From NCBI GenBank assembly GCA_027858495.1, contig JAQICO010000155.1, positions 1 through 35,630 of the forward strand: a stretch of DNA of 35,630 bases, read 5' to 3'. The translations under genes were made by a program, and so were the position numbers. Under the pieces are notes generated by a model, which was given only the letters and a program-made list of their open reading frames with translations, did not search any database and was not told the DNA's origin. Positions within the stretch are counted from its first letter, which is position 1. Every line of letters starts with the position of its first letter. Below, one piece after another: positions 11,340-22,846 of this stretch. Source of the DNA: Spirochaetaceae bacterium. GTDB taxonomy: Bacteria; Spirochaetota; Spirochaetia; DSM-2461.

Positions 11340-12073
11340 AAAAAAAATATTTCTGGTTTTTATTTTATCCATGGATCTTCCTTTTTTTTAGCTGCTCAAT
11401 CCTAATACCCTATGAAAGCTACCGCACCATAAAAGGGGATCATTGCTATATAATTTGTGACGGTGAATTTTCCCAGGAAGAATATGAAGAGATTTTATCC
11501 ATAGCCGATGAGTCTTTTTTGATTATAAAGGAACGCACCGATTTGGATATTAATTTTCCCATAGCAATCTATTTTGATGAGTATAACTTTTTCAATGATT
11601 CAGGATTTGCAAGACATGACGGGATTTTTTTAAATTCGGAGGTGATTGAATATTTGGATGAGGATCTATTGAGAAATACCATAAAGCATGAAATGGTGCA
11701 TATCTTTTTTGGCCTATATTATGGTACCACAACCTCGATGTTTTTTTCTGAAGGTATTGCGGAGTATCTGTCAAACGACGGTGTTGAACCCGAAGAATCT
11801 TCATCCACAAAAAATGATCTATTAAACTGGATTGAATTATCCTACTTTGATTTTGCTTTTGCCAGAGAAAATTATAAGGATAAGGTATATGAGATATATT
11901 TGCTAAGTTATGAATTCATCTTTTATTGGTGTGAAACCTATGGAGAGCGAAGTATATATAAACTATATCCTGAAATTACATCTGAAAATATCATCGCTAA
12001 GCTTGAAGAATATAGCGAAGATAGTTTTGAAAACCTATATAACGATTTTTTAGACTTTTTTGGAGTGCAATGA
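11336..12073 (+). CDS. Lipoprotein metallopeptidase-like protein (HExxH, peptidase-MA type)
   Basis: A predicted 245-residue envelope lipoprotein. The best start is TTG at 11336, overlapping the TGA of the preceding gene, with GGGA eight bases upstream. It gives a basic start (LKKKYFWF), a hydrophobic core and the relaxed lipobox LFFSC with Cys20. The mature part contains HEMVH (His118, Glu119, His122) followed 16 residues later by SEGIAEY (Glu139), the zinc-ligand layout of gluzincin 'peptidase MA-like' proteins. The active-site set looks complete, so proteolysis of an envelope substrate is plausible. No substrate can be named. It overlaps the next gene by four bases. Confidence 0.65.
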   Translation: MKKKYFWFLFYPWIFLFFSCSILIPYESYRTIKGDHCYIICDGEFSQEEYEEILSIADESFLIIKERTDLDINFPIAIYFDEYNFFNDSGFARHDGIFLNSEVIEYLDEDLLRNTIKHEMVHIFFGLYYGTTTSMFFSEGIAEYLSNDGVEPEESSSTKNDLLNWIELSYFDFAFARENYKDKVYEIYLLSYEFIFYWCETYGERSIYKLYPEITSENIIAKLEEYSEDSFENLYNDFLDFFGVQ

Positions 12074-13413
12074 TGAAAAGATACATGTTAATAAGCCTTG
12101 TCTTAATGGTTCTTCTTCTATCCTGTCATCAATTGGATATGGAATCTATAAATTCCGGAGGTTCAATCCTATCAGAAAGGACAACGGAATATACCATCAG
12201 CGATGGAGATACAGAAAGAATTGAGATTTATTGGGATGAAAGTAATGCTCTTATAATAAATACTGCCAACACTCAGAATATTGGTTATTATTTAGTTACC
12301 CTGGATTGGGCATCTTCAGATTGGGAAGATTTATATTTTAACGACATCGTTTTTAAGGTATACCAGGAAATGCCCTACATAGGAGATAGCCAATACAAGA
12401 TATTACACAATAGTGATGGAGAGGGAAATTTTGAATATTACTTCCTTTCCGATGGATTAGAAAAAACCATCATTCTATACCATGAGGATCCAAATGATTT
12501 GAAAAGTAATATTTACGACATAACCCTAAACTCCTACGCTTCTGAGTTAAATGAATATCAGGATACAGACGAGGATCAATATAGGACAATCATTGACCAT
12601 TGGATATCTCCAGGTGAATCTGTAGATGTTTCAGTAAATTATTGGGGAGATAATTTAGCCTATCGATATTATTTTCAAAACTATGAACTAAATAGGAATT
12701 ATCGATTGGTATATAACTGGGATGATAGTAATGCCTTTTTTCAAGACATCCAATACCCTTCCTATTTAGATGAGCATTTCTATAATAGCATTGAAAAAGT
12801 TACTTTGCATGAGATTAGAAATCAAACAAGAGAAGGACAAATCTTTAAAGTTTTCAACAATGATGAAGCAGTCCCTATTTCAGATGAGTCAGGCTATTTT
12901 TTAGTAGATGATCTAAGAACAGGAGATTCCTTCAGTCTTCTTATGGAAGAAATTGATGATCCTGTTTTTACTGATGACACCTTTGAACCGGACCAGGGTC
13001 CTTTATCTGCAAATATGGATATTATTGATGAGAATCATAAAACCAGTGAAATCCATTCTATAACCTGTGAAATAAATGAAAATTATAACAATGAATATAA
13101 TAACGATTGGATTCAATTTTTGCCTTGGGGTATGGGGGAATACGAAATTTCCCTTCGCTTAGAGAATGCCTGGTATATAGAAGAATTTTCCGATGAAGAA
13201 GATTATCAGATTAGCCTTGATCTTATTCATTCCAATGGAGCAGAAACCGAAGATTCGATTACTTTTACTATCCAAGGTGCTCCAGTCAGCCCGATCTTAA
13301 GCAATAATAGCCTGGTTTACTCGTTGATAGAGGATAATGGAAATCCCTTATTTCTAAAGAACCATGCATCTGAGGAAATGAACTATTCCATCATCGTAGA
13401 GAAGCTTAATTGA
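12070..13413 (+). CDS. Acidic lipoprotein with duplicated beta-domain, unknown function
   Basis: A 447-residue protein with a signal peptide and lipobox LLLSC (Cys19), hence a lipoprotein. I recognise no family. The mature chain is strongly acidic and rich in Asn, Tyr and Trp. Two segments look like diverged copies of one beta-sandwich-like unit: about residues 40-100 (ISDGDTERIEIYWDESNAL) and about 177-235 (ISPGESVDVSVNYWGDNLAY), each followed by a strand ending in a Trp-Asp block. The start overlaps the upstream stop as ATGA, with GGAG five bases before. It ends 18 bases before a convergent gene. Probably surface or periplasmic, working with the barrel and the peptidase, but this is inference from gene order. 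Confidence 0.6.
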   Translation: MMKRYMLISLVLMVLLLSCHQLDMESINSGGSILSERTTEYTISDGDTERIEIYWDESNALIINTANTQNIGYYLVTLDWASSDWEDLYFNDIVFKVYQEMPYIGDSQYKILHNSDGEGNFEYYFLSDGLEKTIILYHEDPNDLKSNIYDITLNSYASELNEYQDTDEDQYRTIIDHWISPGESVDVSVNYWGDNLAYRYYFQNYELNRNYRLVYNWDDSNAFFQDIQYPSYLDEHFYNSIEKVTLHEIRNQTREGQIFKVFNNDEAVPISDESGYFLVDDLRTGDSFSLLMEEIDDPVFTDDTFEPDQGPLSANMDIIDENHKTSEIHSITCEINENYNNEYNNDWIQFLPWGMGEYEISLRLENAWYIEEFSDEEDYQISLDLIHSNGAETEDSITFTIQGAPVSPILSNNSLVYSLIEDNGNPLFLKNHASEEMNYSIIVEKLN

Positions 13414-13431: not shown

Positions 13432-14661
13432 CTATAGCCCTTTAAAGGCCTGCTCCATATCCTCCATAATGTCCTCCACATCCTCAATGCCCACAGAGAA
13501 TCTCAGGGAATTCCGGCCGAAGCCCATGGCCTTGAGCTGTGCATCGTCGGAGCTGGAAAAAATGGTGGAAGCAGGATGGATGATCAGTGACTTGTTATCG
13601 CAGAAATTGGTGGCCCGGCGTATCATCTTCAGCCAATCCATAAATGAGTAACATTCCTGCTGATCGCTTAAATCAAAGAGTATCATCTGCCCGGTATTTC
13701 CCTGAAGGATGGGCTGTAATAGATTTGCCTGAGGATAATCGGCCAGCCCGGGGAACAGCACCCGTGAAACCCTGGACTGAGCCTTTAGAAACTCCGCCAT
13801 TTTCAGGGCGTTCTCCTGGGTGCGTTCAACCCTCAATGCAAGGGTTTCCAGCCCCTGAAGCTGAAGGGATGCCGTTTGCGGAGACATGCAGCCGCCCTGA
13901 TTCCGGTAGACCTCGGTAAAAACTTTTTGGGCCAGGGCCAGGGGGCCAGCCGCTTTATGCGCATCGACCAACTTGGGGATCTTCTTCCATTTTTCGCTGG
14001 GATAATAGAGCACAGCTCCCCCCACACTGGTCCCTCCTCCGGAGATAAACTTGGTGGTTGAAAGAACCTCCACATCCACCTGAAAATCCTTTCCCTGGAA
14101 GAGATAGGGTGTGAGTAAGGAATTATCCACCACCAAAACAATTCCATGTTTCTGGCAAATTTGTGAAAGCCCGGCCATATCGTGAAGAATCAGCTGGGGG
14201 TTGGACAAAACCTCCACCAGCAAACAGCGGGTATCCGGAGTAATAGCATTTTCCACGGCCTGGAGGTCTCGAAGATCCACAAAGTCGGTCTCAATTCCAT
14301 AGGGTTTCATGGTGTTATTCAGAAGAGAGAGGGTATTGCCAAAGAGCCAAGGGGAGCTAAGCACTCGGTCTCCCGAGGACAATAATGCGGTTAGTACCGC
14401 TGTCATAGCAGCCATACCGGAACTGAGACATAGGCATTGCTCCGCTCCGGCCAGAATTCTTAAACGCTCCTGCAGTTCAGAAACTGTAGGGTTGGTAATT
14501 CTGGAATAGCCATGAGCTCCGGAACGGCCCTGAAAGGCATCTTCCATGGACTGGCTGTCGGGAAAATCAAAGGCCGAGGTAACATAGACCGGCGGCTTTA
14601 GGGAGCCATGGGAATAGTGTGTCAGATTCCCATGAATTAACTTGGATGCTTTACCTTTCAT
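13432..14661 (-). CDS. Cys/Met-metabolism PLP enzyme (cystathionine gamma-synthase / homocysteine synthase / gamma-lyase family)
   Basis: A 409-residue fold-type-I PLP enzyme of trans-sulfuration or direct sulfhydrylation. Visible family features: YSRITNPT (Tyr52, Arg54, phosphate and cofactor contacts from the neighbouring subunit), SSGMAAMTA (80-88), the cofactor-binding Asp in VVDNS (Asp179) and the Schiff-base lysine in STTKFISGG (Lys204). Family members include O-acetylhomoserine sulfhydrylase, cystathionine gamma-synthase and methionine gamma-lyase. Sequence reading alone does not separate them. AGGAG precedes the start. It lies 40 bases downstream of the metG remnant on the same strand, so it is likely served by the Met-codon leader upstream. 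Confidence 0.85.
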   Translation of the reverse strand: MKGKASKLIHGNLTHYSHGSLKPPVYVTSAFDFPDSQSMEDAFQGRSGAHGYSRITNPTVSELQERLRILAGAEQCLCLSSGMAAMTAVLTALLSSGDRVLSSPWLFGNTLSLLNNTMKPYGIETDFVDLRDLQAVENAITPDTRCLLVEVLSNPQLILHDMAGLSQICQKHGIVLVVDNSLLTPYLFQGKDFQVDVEVLSTTKFISGGGTSVGGAVLYYPSEKWKKIPKLVDAHKAAGPLALAQKVFTEVYRNQGGCMSPQTASLQLQGLETLALRVERTQENALKMAEFLKAQSRVSRVLFPGLADYPQANLLQPILQGNTGQMILFDLSDQQECYSFMDWLKMIRRATNFCDNKSLIIHPASTIFSSSDDAQLKAMGFGRNSLRFSVGIEDVEDIMEDMEQAFKGL

Positions 14662-14701: not shown

Positions 14702-15629
14702 TCATTTCTTGGGGAACAGCACAGCAATATCTCCCAGCTTCTGACCTTCCCTTAAGGCTAATAGTTTGAACTCCAAACCCTTAAATCCCCCTTGGGGTAT
14801 TTGAATATTCAGAGAGCCAAGAGCTTGGGCCGAGATTCCGGGCATTATCACAGAACCGGCTTCAAAGAGCAAACGAACCGCTTCCAGCCCAGTTCTTAAA
14901 ACAGAAAATAGTTTTATTTGACCTTCTGAACTGTCATCCTTGGCCAAGATCCAGGGAGCCTGATCTTCAATAAACCGGTTGATCCGCCGTCCCATTTCTT
15001 CCATATTTTCAGCAACTTTGGAAATGGCTGTCAGATCAGCTTTTTTAATTTGGTTATTTTTTGCCAGGTATACCAAATCCTGAAGAAATTACAGCTGCAT
15101 ATAGGACAAAGTATTCTGGGGTATTTTCCATTGGCAGTAACGTTCAACCATCTTAACTGCTCTCAAATAGGCATTTCCAATATTGTTGGATAAAATTGAG
15201 ACATAACAATGCTGCACCAATTCCTCTCCAATTTTCGCCTCATTGCGCCCCATGTTCCGTGCGAGAAAAAATCGTAGAGTATCGGCTCCATAGAGTGAAA
15301 TTAGCTGTGTTGGATCTACTGCATTTCCCAGGGATTTTGCCATCTTCTTTCCATCTATACCAATCCAATAGCCATGGACCAGACAGCCCTTGGGCGGGGG
15401 TAGTTCCAAGGCTTTAAGCATTATGACATTCCCCGGTAGTTAGGCCGCTCTTTAGAATCTCTTCCTGATTTTTTTGACCATGCTCATCTACTCCCGTAGT
15501 ATAAAAAACCTCATGGCCCAGCATTCTAAAGGAGCGCTTAAGGATATCCCCCATAACTGAGGTATGAGCATGACCCACATGGGGATTTCCATTTACGTAA
15601 TAGATAGGTGTTGTGAAATAATAATTCAT
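14702..15629 (-). pseudogene. metG: Decayed methionyl-tRNA synthetase gene
   Basis: Three pieces of a MetRS without C-terminal tRNA-binding extension can be read. The 5' piece (15414-15629) has YYFTTPIYYVNGNPHVGHAH, including the HIGH-type motif HVGH, and breaks off after GVDEHGQKNQEEILKSG. The next piece (15089-15421, another frame) resumes at MLKALELPPPKGCLVHG with KMAKS (KMSKS motif). It runs into TAA at 15089-15091; in the same frame the C-terminal helical domain continues to 14702 (RRINRFIEDQAPW). About 200 codons of the catalytic core, including the connective-peptide region, are missing at 15410-15425, and the junction shifts the frame. AGGAGG before the ATG remains intact. It cannot encode a working synthetase, so a full metG must exist elsewhere. 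Confidence 0.9.
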
Positions 15630-15734: not shown

Positions 15735-15764
15735 AAAAAAAAAGCCCTCACAAGGAGGACTTTT
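15735..15764 (-). terminator. Intrinsic terminator (3:4 hairpin) in the leader of the metG remnant operon
   Basis: On the minus strand AAAAGTCCTC (15764-15755) pairs with GAGGGCTTTT (15749-15740) over ten base pairs (one G-U) around loop CTTGT, followed by five more T. It sits about 105 bases upstream of the metG remnant start codon, so it would end transcription before the coding part unless prevented. Confidence 0.85.
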
Positions 15765-15840
15765 AGTAGATCTATTTGATCTATCTATAACTGGCCCACC
15801 TTTATCCATGAGAACTTCTGCATCATCATAAAAGAGGTGG
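15752..15840 (-). promoter_or_regulatory. Mutually exclusive leader hairpins (1:2 protector, 2:3 antiterminator)
   Basis: Segment 1 CCACCT (15840-15835) pairs perfectly with AGGTGG in segment 2 (15801-15796). Segment 2 AAGGTGGGC (15802-15794) can instead pair with segment 3 GTCCTCCTT (15760-15752) with one mismatch and one G-U. Segment 3 includes the 5' arm of the terminator, so 2:3 pairing would block termination. The three Met codons (15829-15821) lie between segments 1 and 2, and the leader stop codon (15787-15785) lies just after segment 2. This is the geometry of ribosome-mediated attenuation. Confidence 0.7.
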
Positions 15841-15868
15841 TTTTACTGTATCTGCTATTTGATTTCAT
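15785..15868 (-). CDS. Candidate attenuator leader peptide with Met-Met-Met
   Basis: A 27-codon ORF: ATG at 15868, Met codons 14-16 in a row (15829-15821, context SFMMMQK) and TAG at 15787-15785. It lies between a TTGACA promoter and an intrinsic terminator, upstream of a metG remnant and a methionine-metabolism gene. There is no Shine-Dalgarno site. The -10 box is seven bases before the ATG, so it may be read leaderless. An in-frame ATG at 15880 would add four codons (including one more Met), but it overlaps the -10 box. A stalled ribosome at the Met run would mask segment 1 and favour the antiterminator. Not a member of any known protein family. Confidence 0.65.
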   Translation of the reverse strand: MKSNSRYSKTTSFMMMQKFSWIKVGQL

Positions 15869-15875
15869 TGGCTTA

Positions 15876-15905
15876 AGCATATTACCCCTGGGATATATTT
15901 GTCAA
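15876..15905 (-). promoter_or_regulatory. Promoter of the Met-leader / metG remnant operon
   Basis: Perfect -35 TTGACA (15905-15900), 18-base spacer, -10 TATGCT (15881-15876), then seven bases to the leader-peptide ATG at 15868. An alternative -10 (TAATAT, 15884-15879) has a 15-base spacer. Confidence 0.6.
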
Positions 15906-15932: not shown

Positions 15933-16226
15933 CTAGAGATAATTCTTGATCTCATTAATTTGATCATAAAGAGATATAAGGTTCTTCTTATTCATCCCTC
16001 CAGGAATGGAAAAAACAAAATAACCGGGGAATAAGATTAAAGACGAACCAGGTTGAAGGATTCCCCTAAGAAGAGAAGAAAATGAGGCCGATAGATTTAA
16101 CCCTTGGAATGCAGAAATCGAGGACACCATCAGCCAGTTCCAATCTTGATATTCCGGGGTAGAAAGCTCTCCCGAGGCAGCCATTTCAGCGATTCTACCC
16201 AGGGCTCCGCTCTGCCTGGGAACCAT
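15933..16226 (-). CDS. Hypothetical ORF or 5'-truncated gene remnant
   Basis: A 97-codon ORF between the aldo/keto reductase and the Met leader on the same strand. The reading frame stays open ten codons further upstream to a TAG at 16257-16259, and the encoded text there (YDDSPLIMVPRQSG) also looks protein-like, while no ribosome site precedes the ATG. The C-terminal part (GSSLILFPGYFVFSIPGG, then a charged helix) looks like a real small alpha/beta domain, but I do not recognise it. Either a small gene with an unrecognised start or the tail of a decayed gene. Next to the metG remnant, decay is plausible. Confidence 0.35.
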   Translation of the reverse strand: MVPRQSGALGRIAEMAASGELSTPEYQDWNWLMVSSISAFQGLNLSASFSSLLRGILQPGSSLILFPGYFVFSIPGGMNKKNLISLYDQINEIKNYL

Positions 16227-20662: not shown

Positions 20663-21016
20663 TTAGGAATATTTCCTATTTTTTGATGCTGAGGAGCAAA
20701 TTAGGCGGGTTATAGAATTCACCTTCCTTCGATCAGAAAGAAAAGGCTCTTTTTCTAGATAGTCAGAGGTGACCCTATGAATGAAGCTTTGAGGCTCTCC
20801 ATTTTTTATTGCATATTCCACCCAGCGACCGTCTTTATGCTGATCCACCAACCCGGAATTATGCAGAATTTTTAAATGATTGGACAAAGTCCCCCCAGAA
20901 ATATCCAGTACTTCCAGTAGTTCACAAACACAGAGAGCACGCTGCCCTAACATCATGACAATACGCATACGATTTGCATCGGAAAGGGCTTTAAGCCGTT
21001 GAATTAATTCATCCAT
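20663..21016 (-). CDS. arsR: ArsR-family arsenic-responsive repressor
   Basis: A 117-residue winged-helix repressor. The Cys-Val-Cys pair (Cys29 and Cys31, context RALCVCELLEVL) lies in the helix that carries the As(III)-binding ELCVCDL motif of ArsR proteins. Recognition helix GGTLSNHLKILHNSGLV follows, then the wing KDGRWVEYAI. A third Cys (107) near the C-terminus could complete a three-thiol site. It is divergent from a permease, small thioredoxin and arsenate reductase, which supports arsenic sensing. There is no ribosome site. TATATT lies eight bases before the ATG, so it is probably leaderless. Confidence 0.88.
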   Translation of the reverse strand: MDELIQRLKALSDANRMRIVMMLGQRALCVCELLEVLDISGGTLSNHLKILHNSGLVDQHKDGRWVEYAIKNGEPQSFIHRVTSDYLEKEPFLSDRRKVNSITRLICSSASKNRKYS

Positions 21017-21024
21017 ATTTCAAG

Positions 21025-21052
21025 AATATACTCAAAACTATTGATTATTCAA
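21025..21052 (-). promoter_or_regulatory. arsR promoter with overlapping inverted repeat
   Basis: On the minus strand TTGAAT (21052-21047), 16-base spacer, TATATT (21030-21025), then eight bases to the arsR ATG. The inverted repeat TTGATTATTCAA (21041-21052) overlaps the -35 box and lies between the divergent arsR and permease genes, a plausible ArsR operator. Confidence 0.5.
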
Positions 21053-21103
21053 GACGTAAAGTCTATATTTAGCTAATTATCGAAATATGAGGAAAAAAAA
21101 GTC

Positions 21104-22072
21104 ATGAATAAACTATTTAAATTTTGGGCAGACTTTTGGATATATCGGGTTGCCGCCATGGATATGGATAGTTCCCTAGGACAAAGCCTACACTTCTTTA
21201 TTGAGGATACCAGCAAAATCTTTGTTCTCCTTCTATTGATGATTTACATCATATCCTGGCTGCGTGCCGGACTGGATATGTTTCGTATCCGTGGATTTCT
21301 TCAAGGCAAAGGACGTCTACCAGCCTACATTATGGCATCCTTCTTTGGAGCCATTACTCCCTTTTGTTCCTGTTCAAGCATTCCCCTCTTTTTAGGTTTC
21401 ACTTCTGCGGGAATTCCTCTGGGCATAACGATGGCTTTCCTCATAACCAGCCCCATGATCAATGAAGTTGCCCTGGTATTGCTGGGCAGTACACTCGGTT
21501 TGAAGTTTCTCTTAATTTATACATCCATCGGAATGACTTCAGGCATTTTGGGCGGCTGGTTTTTAGACAGTATCAAAGCAGAAAGATACCTCACAGATCT
21601 GGGAGCAAGAGCATTAAATCAGCCAAGCCCGGAAAATCAGACAAAGCAGAAGATGACGGGGAAACAAAGGCATCAATTTGCCATTAAGGAACTTAAGGAA
21701 ATCTTCAGCCGCGTGTGGATATGGATTCTAATTGGAGTGGGAATTGGGGCCCTACTACACGGCTTTGTGCCGGAGAATTTTTTTACGGAACATCTTGGAA
21801 AAGGCCAACTGTGGACAGTGCCTGCAGCCGTTATCCTGGGAATCCCCCTCTATGCCAATGCCAGCGGGGTAATTCCTGTGGTTGAAAGCCTTATAAATAA
21901 AGGTGTGCCCATAGGTACCGCAATGGCCTTTATGATGAGTGTAGTTGGGGCAAGCTTTCCGGAATTCATGATGCTGAAACAGGTGATGAAACCCCGGCTA
22001 CTATTGCTGTTTTTTCTGATTCTGATGATATTGTTCAGTGTGGCTGGGTGGGCGTTAAATTATCTTTTATAA
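21104..22072 (+). CDS. DUF318/ArsP-type permease
   Basis: A 322-residue membrane protein with about eight helices. The family hallmark TPFCSCSSIPLFLGFTSAG (Cys88 and Cys90) lies in a membrane segment, and a second block GIPLYANASGVIPVVESL mirrors it in the C-terminal half. These features define the DUF318 permeases, which include ArsP exporters of trivalent organoarsenicals. The neighbouring arsR and arsC support an arsenic role, but no ArsB or Acr3 is in the window, so the exact substrate is uncertain. GAGGA lies ten bases before the ATG. First gene of a three-gene unit with the thioredoxin and arsC. Confidence 0.82.
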   Translation: MNKLFKFWADFWIYRVAAMDMDSSLGQSLHFFIEDTSKIFVLLLLMIYIISWLRAGLDMFRIRGFLQGKGRLPAYIMASFFGAITPFCSCSSIPLFLGFTSAGIPLGITMAFLITSPMINEVALVLLGSTLGLKFLLIYTSIGMTSGILGGWFLDSIKAERYLTDLGARALNQPSPENQTKQKMTGKQRHQFAIKELKEIFSRVWIWILIGVGIGALLHGFVPENFFTEHLGKGQLWTVPAAVILGIPLYANASGVIPVVESLINKGVPIGTAMAFMMSVVGASFPEFMMLKQVMKPRLLLLFFLILMILFSVAGWALNYLL

Positions 22073-22141
22073 CAAAGGCCCCTTTAAAACAATGGTTGTT
22101 TCGAACAGGGTCGGTTAAATAAACAAATAAAGGAAGGTATC

Positions 22142-22384
22142 ATGAAAATTCAAGTATTAGGCTCGGGCTGTAAAAAGTGTAAAGTCTTAGAATTAAGAGT
22201 AAATGAAGCGCTGGAAAATCTAGCCATGGAAGCTCAGGTGATAAAAGTGGAAGATCCCCTGGAAATAATGGGATTTGGTGTAATGTCTACCCCAGCCCTT
22301 GTTATTGACGGAGAGGTTAAATTCAGTGGGTCCCTGCCTGACCAAGAGGAAATTGAGAAATTAATAAAGGCTTACAAAGAGTAA
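22142..22384 (+). CDS. Small thioredoxin-fold redox protein (CxxC)
   Basis: An 80-residue thioredoxin-like protein with active site Cys10-Lys-Lys-Cys13 (GSGCKKC) and the cis-proline loop STPALVIDG, typical of the 'redox-active disulfide protein 2' group that often accompanies DUF318 permeases. It may recycle the arsenate reductase 16 bases downstream or pass metalloid or thiol groups to the permease. The choice between these is inference. AAGGAAGG provides the ribosome site. Confidence 0.85.
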   Translation: MKIQVLGSGCKKCKVLELRVNEALENLAMEAQVIKVEDPLEIMGFGVMSTPALVIDGEVKFSGSLPDQEEIEKLIKAYKE

Positions 22385-22399
22385 AAGAGGATTGCGATT

Positions 22400-22846
22400 A
22401 TGGATAAAAAAACGATTTTAGTGGTTTGTGTTCACAACAGTGCACGTAGTCAGATGGCCGAGGAATATCTTCGAAAATTCGGCGGAGACCTATTTGAACC
22501 GTCCAGCGCCGGTATCGAACCAGGCAATCTGAATCCCTTTGTGGTGAAGGTTCTCCAGGAAGAGAGTATCGATATATCCGGAAAGAAAACACAAAGCACC
22601 CAGGATCTCTACCAACGGGGAGATTCCTACGACTATGTGGTCACCGTGTGCAGCGCAGAAGCTAAGGAGCGCTGTCCCATATACCCAGGAACTATTCAAC
22701 GGTTTCACTGGCCCTTCGACGACCCCTCTTCATTTACTGGAAGCGATGATGAAAAGCTTGAGGGAACCCGGGTAGTTAGGGAGCAGATCAAAGAAAAGAT
22801 TCAGGCCTTTGTACTGGAATATAGAGAAAACAACCCAGAGGTTTAG
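22400..22846 (+). CDS. arsC: Arsenate reductase, thioredoxin-coupled low-molecular-weight phosphatase type
   Basis: A 148-residue cytoplasmic enzyme reducing arsenate to arsenite. The anion loop CVHNSARSQMAE gives nucleophile Cys10, Arg16 and Ser17. The resolving cysteines are Cys84 and Cys92 in VTVCSAEAKERCP, one residue further apart than the usual C82/C89 pair. This is the triple-Cys layout of pI258-type ArsC, which needs thioredoxin, and a thioredoxin-fold gene lies just upstream. A ribosome site AGAGGA lies eight bases before the ATG. Last gene of the unit; a hairpin follows its stop. Confidence 0.9.
   Translation: MDKKTILVVCVHNSARSQMAEEYLRKFGGDLFEPSSAGIEPGNLNPFVVKVLQEESIDISGKKTQSTQDLYQRGDSYDYVVTVCSAEAKERCPIYPGTIQRFHWPFDDPSSFTGSDDEKLEGTRVVREQIKEKIQAFVLEYRENNPEV

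Follow-up and report, generated by a model that had tools for sequence, protein, structure and literature searches.

Leader-peptide attenuators are established for the trp, his, thr, phe and leu operons and, among the synthetases, for pheST. Met genes are usually regulated by T-box and SAM riboswitches, which bind uncharged tRNA or SAM. Candidate leuS attenuators were found in Streptomyces, and no conserved RNA element was seen at the methionine operons of Actinobacteria (PMC1262725). For the trpL attenuator of Sinorhizobium meliloti it was shown experimentally that the RNA starts at the leader ATG and is leaderless (PMC7298713). Here we analysed a stretch of 35,630 nucleotides from a Spirochaetaceae bacterium (the window), which carries on its minus strand a leader ORF with a Met run and an intrinsic terminator, followed by the remains of a metG gene. 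We read this element as a ribosome-mediated transcription attenuator that responds to the supply of Met-tRNA (probability about 0.75).

The putative promoter contains the perfect TTGACA -35 noted in the preliminary description, and the 27-codon ORF with three consecutive ATG codons was found as reported there (Table 1). Between the end of the putative -10 and the leader ATG at 15868 lie 7 nt, so the RNA would start at this ATG or 1-2 bases off; the distance was 7-8 nt in every inspected member of an alphaproteobacterial set of leaders described below. A second in-frame ATG at 15880 overlaps the putative -10 (TATGCT) and would be missing from RNA made from this promoter, and ATG 15868 is, judged from the sequence, the best start for the leader ORF. 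The leader ORF is probably read from a leaderless transcript. A 97-aa ORF without a Pfam or NCBIfam match (15933-16226, minus) lies between an aldo/keto reductase gene and the leader.

All the pairings that had been proposed for the leader were recovered. Segment 1 (CCACCT) pairs with AGGTGG of segment 2 in a long hairpin (15840-15835 with 15801-15796), segment 2 can also pair with segment 3 over nine positions (AAGGTGGGC with GTCCTCCTT, with one U.U mismatch and one G.U pair, enclosing a further hairpin), and segment 3 lies in the 5' arm of a ten-pair terminator with a T run. In the folding tests the 1:2, 2:3 and 3:4 pairings were mutually exclusive and were switched by the position of the ribosome. 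The intrinsic terminator stands before the first gene, which is the place expected for an attenuator.

Table 1. Features of the leader region and of the genes below it (window coordinates).
Feature	Position	Strand	Description or basis
Putative promoter	15876..15905	-	TTGACA (15905-15900), 18-nt spacer, TATGCT (15881-15876); sigma-70-like, 10/12 consensus matches
Leader ORF, 27 aa, MKSNSRYSKTTSFMMMQKFSWIKVGQL	15785..15868	-	Translation; ATG 15868, TAG 15787-15785
Segment 1, CCACCT	15835..15840	-	Pairs with AGGTGG of segment 2; seen in the no-ribosome fold
ATGATGATG, proposed sensing codons (Met-Met-Met)	15821..15829	-	Sequence
Segment 2, AAGGTGGGC	15794..15802	-	Partner is segment 1 or segment 3
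Small hairpin TAGATAGATCAAATAGATCTACTA (TAGATAGATC-AAATA-GATCTACTA)	15764..15787	-	Nested inside the 2:3 antiterminator
Segment 3, GTCCTCCTT	15752..15760	-	Within terminator 5' arm; pairs upstream with segment 2
Intrinsic terminator (3:4), 10-pair stem AAAAGTCCTCCTTGTGAGGGCTTTT (15764-15740), then T run	15735..15764	-	Terminator scan, folding
metG pseudogene	14702..15629	-	68 N-terminal codons match MetRS; out-of-frame loss of ~600 nt near 15425; TAA 15091-15089 in frame in the C-terminal part
Cys/Met-metabolism PLP enzyme, 409 aa, intact	13432..14661	-	PF01053 full length, E 2e-102

From these parts we infer translation of the leader, ribosome stalling and regulation at this element as follows. 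RNA polymerase would begin at the leader ATG or close to it. When Met-tRNA is plentiful, the ribosome would reach the stop codon and cover segment 2, and the 3:4 terminator would form. When Met-tRNA is short, the ribosome would stall on the Met codons and cover segment 1; segment 2 with its nested hairpin would then capture segment 3 before segment 4 has been transcribed, and transcription would continue through the metG pseudogene into the PLP gene.

The folding results agreed with the earlier expectation that a stall on Met favours the antiterminator and a ribosome at the stop codon the terminator. In a transcript ending just before segment 4, the mean probability of upstream pairing of segment 3 was 0.26 when no ribosome was placed. 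It rose to 0.87 when one occupied the first, second or third Met codon, and was 0.15 when one stood at the stop codon. With the ribosome on the second or third Met, the 2:3 antiterminator with the nested hairpin reached -16.5 kcal/mol before segment 4. The terminator formed with a probability of 0.96 when the ribosome stood at the stop codon and of 0.86 when it was absent. At equilibrium with segment 4 present, the antiterminator was kept only by a stall on the first Met (terminator 0.00), whereas stalls on the second and third returned to the terminator (0.72 and 0.88), and the window switch would therefore depend on kinetics, that is, on the order of folding.

The counts of promoters and terminators alone were at chance level (3 vs 2.7 and 1 vs 1.2 in shuffles), and therefore the switch itself was tested. 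In dinucleotide shuffles of the sequence preceding the terminator, 4 of 1000 reached the observed difference (0.26 vs 0.87) and 14 exceeded 0.5, and short ORFs (ATG start, 8-45 codons) with MMM inside occurred in 4 of 20,000 shuffles of the region, where both the 4/1000 and the 4/20,000 are uncorrected for the choice of the site, which a reader had picked from the whole window. The two shuffle tests address separate questions, and the metG identity of the gene below enters into neither. The chance-level counts, together with the same-strand genes upstream, would also suit an ordinary terminator of a transcript from the aldo/keto reductase gene and the 97-aa ORF, with the Met-rich ORF arising by chance and the metG remnant and PLP gene served by a promoter of their own further downstream. 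However, shuffles seldom reproduce the switch or the Met run, the putative promoter lies directly before the leader, no 9/12 promoter was found on the minus strand between the terminator and the metG start, and the sensed codon matches the gene downstream, all of which makes this explanation quite improbable.

Because T-box and SAM riboswitches are the usual regulators of Met genes, another Met-sensing RNA of this kind that escaped recognition would be a conceivable reading of the leader. Against this, Rfam gave no match at gathering score at the window locus and none that was plausible at E values up to 5. The leader did not match the Rfam T-box model, and RF00162, the SAM riboswitch, matched neither the leader nor any sequence in 26 family genomes. 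Such an RNA is thus largely excluded by the sequence, and we give this explanation hardly any weight.

Folding bore out the 1:2/2:3/3:4 logic of the proposed Met attenuator, but the metG below it is a dead gene. The metG sequences seen downstream are the remains of one broken gene (the ~600-nt deletion was measured against relatives and read from the assembled sequence), and the Cys/Met enzyme that had been noted with them is intact. The PLP gene starts 40 nt after the metG remnant and its product keeps the PLP-lysine motif STTKFISGGG; its NCBIfam matches were to homocysteine synthase, cystathionine gamma-synthase and Met gamma-lyase models, all below cut-off. A 447-aa ORF without a Pfam or NCBIfam match (12070-13413, plus) is convergent with the PLP gene. 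Elsewhere in the window, an ArsR-type regulator is divergent from an ArsP-type permease (20663-22846). A member of the low molecular weight phosphatase family is encoded close by (22400-22846), and the group may be a cluster for resistance to arsenic or metals.

Elsewhere, the same genome encodes a second MetRS that belongs to a different type and is divided between two contigs. The window-type metG was absent from 25 other family members and is rare in the class (6 of 395 genomes, this one included). The closest matches to its N-terminus come from diverse foreign bacteria, which makes acquisition by transfer probable. A close-relative search of genome contigs with the PLP protein gave no match, and the proteins closest to it in the class (41-45%) are encoded in different gene neighbourhoods, with no metG adjoining them. 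In other genomes of the class, the genes beside the nearest relatives of the PLP enzyme (L066-L071) resemble, by eye, those for a ThiF-type activating enzyme and a JAMM-type protease, which would point to homocysteine synthesis by way of a sulfur carrier in those neighbourhoods.

The unit was probably once a metG-plus-PLP operon that lost its first gene, and the PLP gene is likely the present target of control. As metG has died, the element, if still working, would now control the intact PLP enzyme, and selection on the leader may already be relaxed. The leader could also be a former attenuator that is now a relic in a drifting locus with a decaying metG2 operon. The large deletion and nonsense codon in metG, the other-type MetRS elsewhere and the adjacent 97-aa ORF without a family are in line with decay, but no part of the leader is damaged and the downstream PLP gene has kept its full length and its lysine motif, and we hold a relic to be unlikely.

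The window leader is known from one genome. A DNA search of 61 relatives returned short chance matches only and no relative with the leader. In the upstream regions taken from two (L156, L157) of the five other window-type metG matches in the class, no Met-run leader was seen. The three best N-terminal matches to the window metG (L075-L077) were considered as leader carriers and rejected, their upstream regions being without a Met leader. The pattern of promoter, ATG and ATGATGATG occurred in 53 of the 395 class genomes; at the fetched loci six other matches had an in-frame Met run, and these lie inside long frames and are therefore probably coding sequence.

When the upstream regions of 80 metG loci were scanned, Met-run leaders followed by terminators were found in six alphaproteobacterial MAGs, and most alphaproteobacterial metG among the regions scanned had no Met leader. 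With a covariance model (R1) and searches of the order, the set grew to 9 of 153 genomes of one uncultured alphaproteobacterial order (L226-L233 and L182). The gene directly below the leader is metG in eight of the nine; in the ninth (L230) the sequence stops shortly past the leader, too early for metG to be read. Weak R1 matches elsewhere in Alphaproteobacteria were discarded, as they had no Met run where inspected, and the element had no Rfam match at gathering score. In the leader peptides (MRNRIDMMMMRMEMGLWL, MRNRIDIMMMRMEMRLFL, MKNRIDMIMRMAKRIGQQ, MKNRIDMMMRMAKRIGQQ, MKIFDLTFNATMRMEMGYY, MRENVFKITAFGRMEMWMKMQFAFPSAQAFLR and MREKVFKITAFGRMEMWMKMRFAFPSAQAFLG) the Met codons are kept and the rest of the peptide diverges.

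The 1:2 pairing of this set is AATGCGAATGG or a variant with CCGTCGGCG, and the 2:3 pairing joins CCGTC with GGCGG, the 5' arm of the terminator. Between L182 and L231 a change in this arm is matched in both of its alternative partners (CCCGTC/GGCGGG/CCCGTC to GCCGTC/GGCGGT/ACCGTC). Covariation over the 1:2 and 3:4 pairs was 0.288 vs 0.159 in shuffles (0 of 500), and the 7 pairs with double changes were equalled in 1 of 500, in an alignment that was fitted to the model and has only 7 distinct rows. The switch was 0.84-0.98 in four members, a value that 0-1 of 400 shuffles matched. L232 and L233, the two most divergent members, have their leader before a MetRS of the other type (MKYLITSALPYVNGTKHLGN...), and its persistence there ties the leader to the function of MetRS rather than to a single gene lineage. 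The simple folding switch was weaker in these two (0.76 without a ribosome, 0.24-0.92 with), and the mechanism is thus less clear there than in the other members.

According to the preliminary description, no Met leader-peptide attenuator of this kind is known to have been described in spirochaetes. This agrees with Rfam and with the open-access papers searched, in which no Met-codon attenuator of metG was found, the subscription literature being mostly outside their scope; the window leader is not, however, the sole one of its kind, given the alphaproteobacterial order. With slightly better than even confidence, we propose that Met-codon leader attenuators of MetRS form a class not yet described, which has at least two origins (in this genome and in the alphaproteobacterial order), uses leaderless initiation, can stay above a MetRS of another type and in the window has survived the loss of metG and now controls an enzyme of sulfur amino-acid metabolism. 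They would add methionine to the amino acids sensed by leader attenuation, with the conserved, covarying alphaproteobacterial set at hand for laboratory tests. Methionine is an awkward case for such attenuation, since its shortage also limits fMet-tRNA for initiation, and in a leader without a Shine-Dalgarno sequence that senses internal Met codons the competition between initiation and elongation can be tested directly.

The window element resembles the known amino-acid leader-peptide attenuators in its short ORF with regulatory codons, its three alternative pairings and its intrinsic terminator, and differs from them in that the regulatory amino acid is methionine. In common with T-box and SAM riboswitches it would control Met genes by premature termination, although neither structure is present in the leader. 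The likely leaderless start of both the window and the alphaproteobacterial Met leaders is shared with S. meliloti trpL, which has Trp codons, a different gene and experimental proof (PMC7298713). As model R1 gave no match in the window up to E 10, we regard the window and alphaproteobacterial leaders as analogues and not as sequence homologues. They share the Met run, the terminator, the switch logic, the distance from promoter to ATG and metG below, whereas the Met codons lie inside segment 1 in the alphaproteobacterial leaders and downstream of segment 1 in the window.
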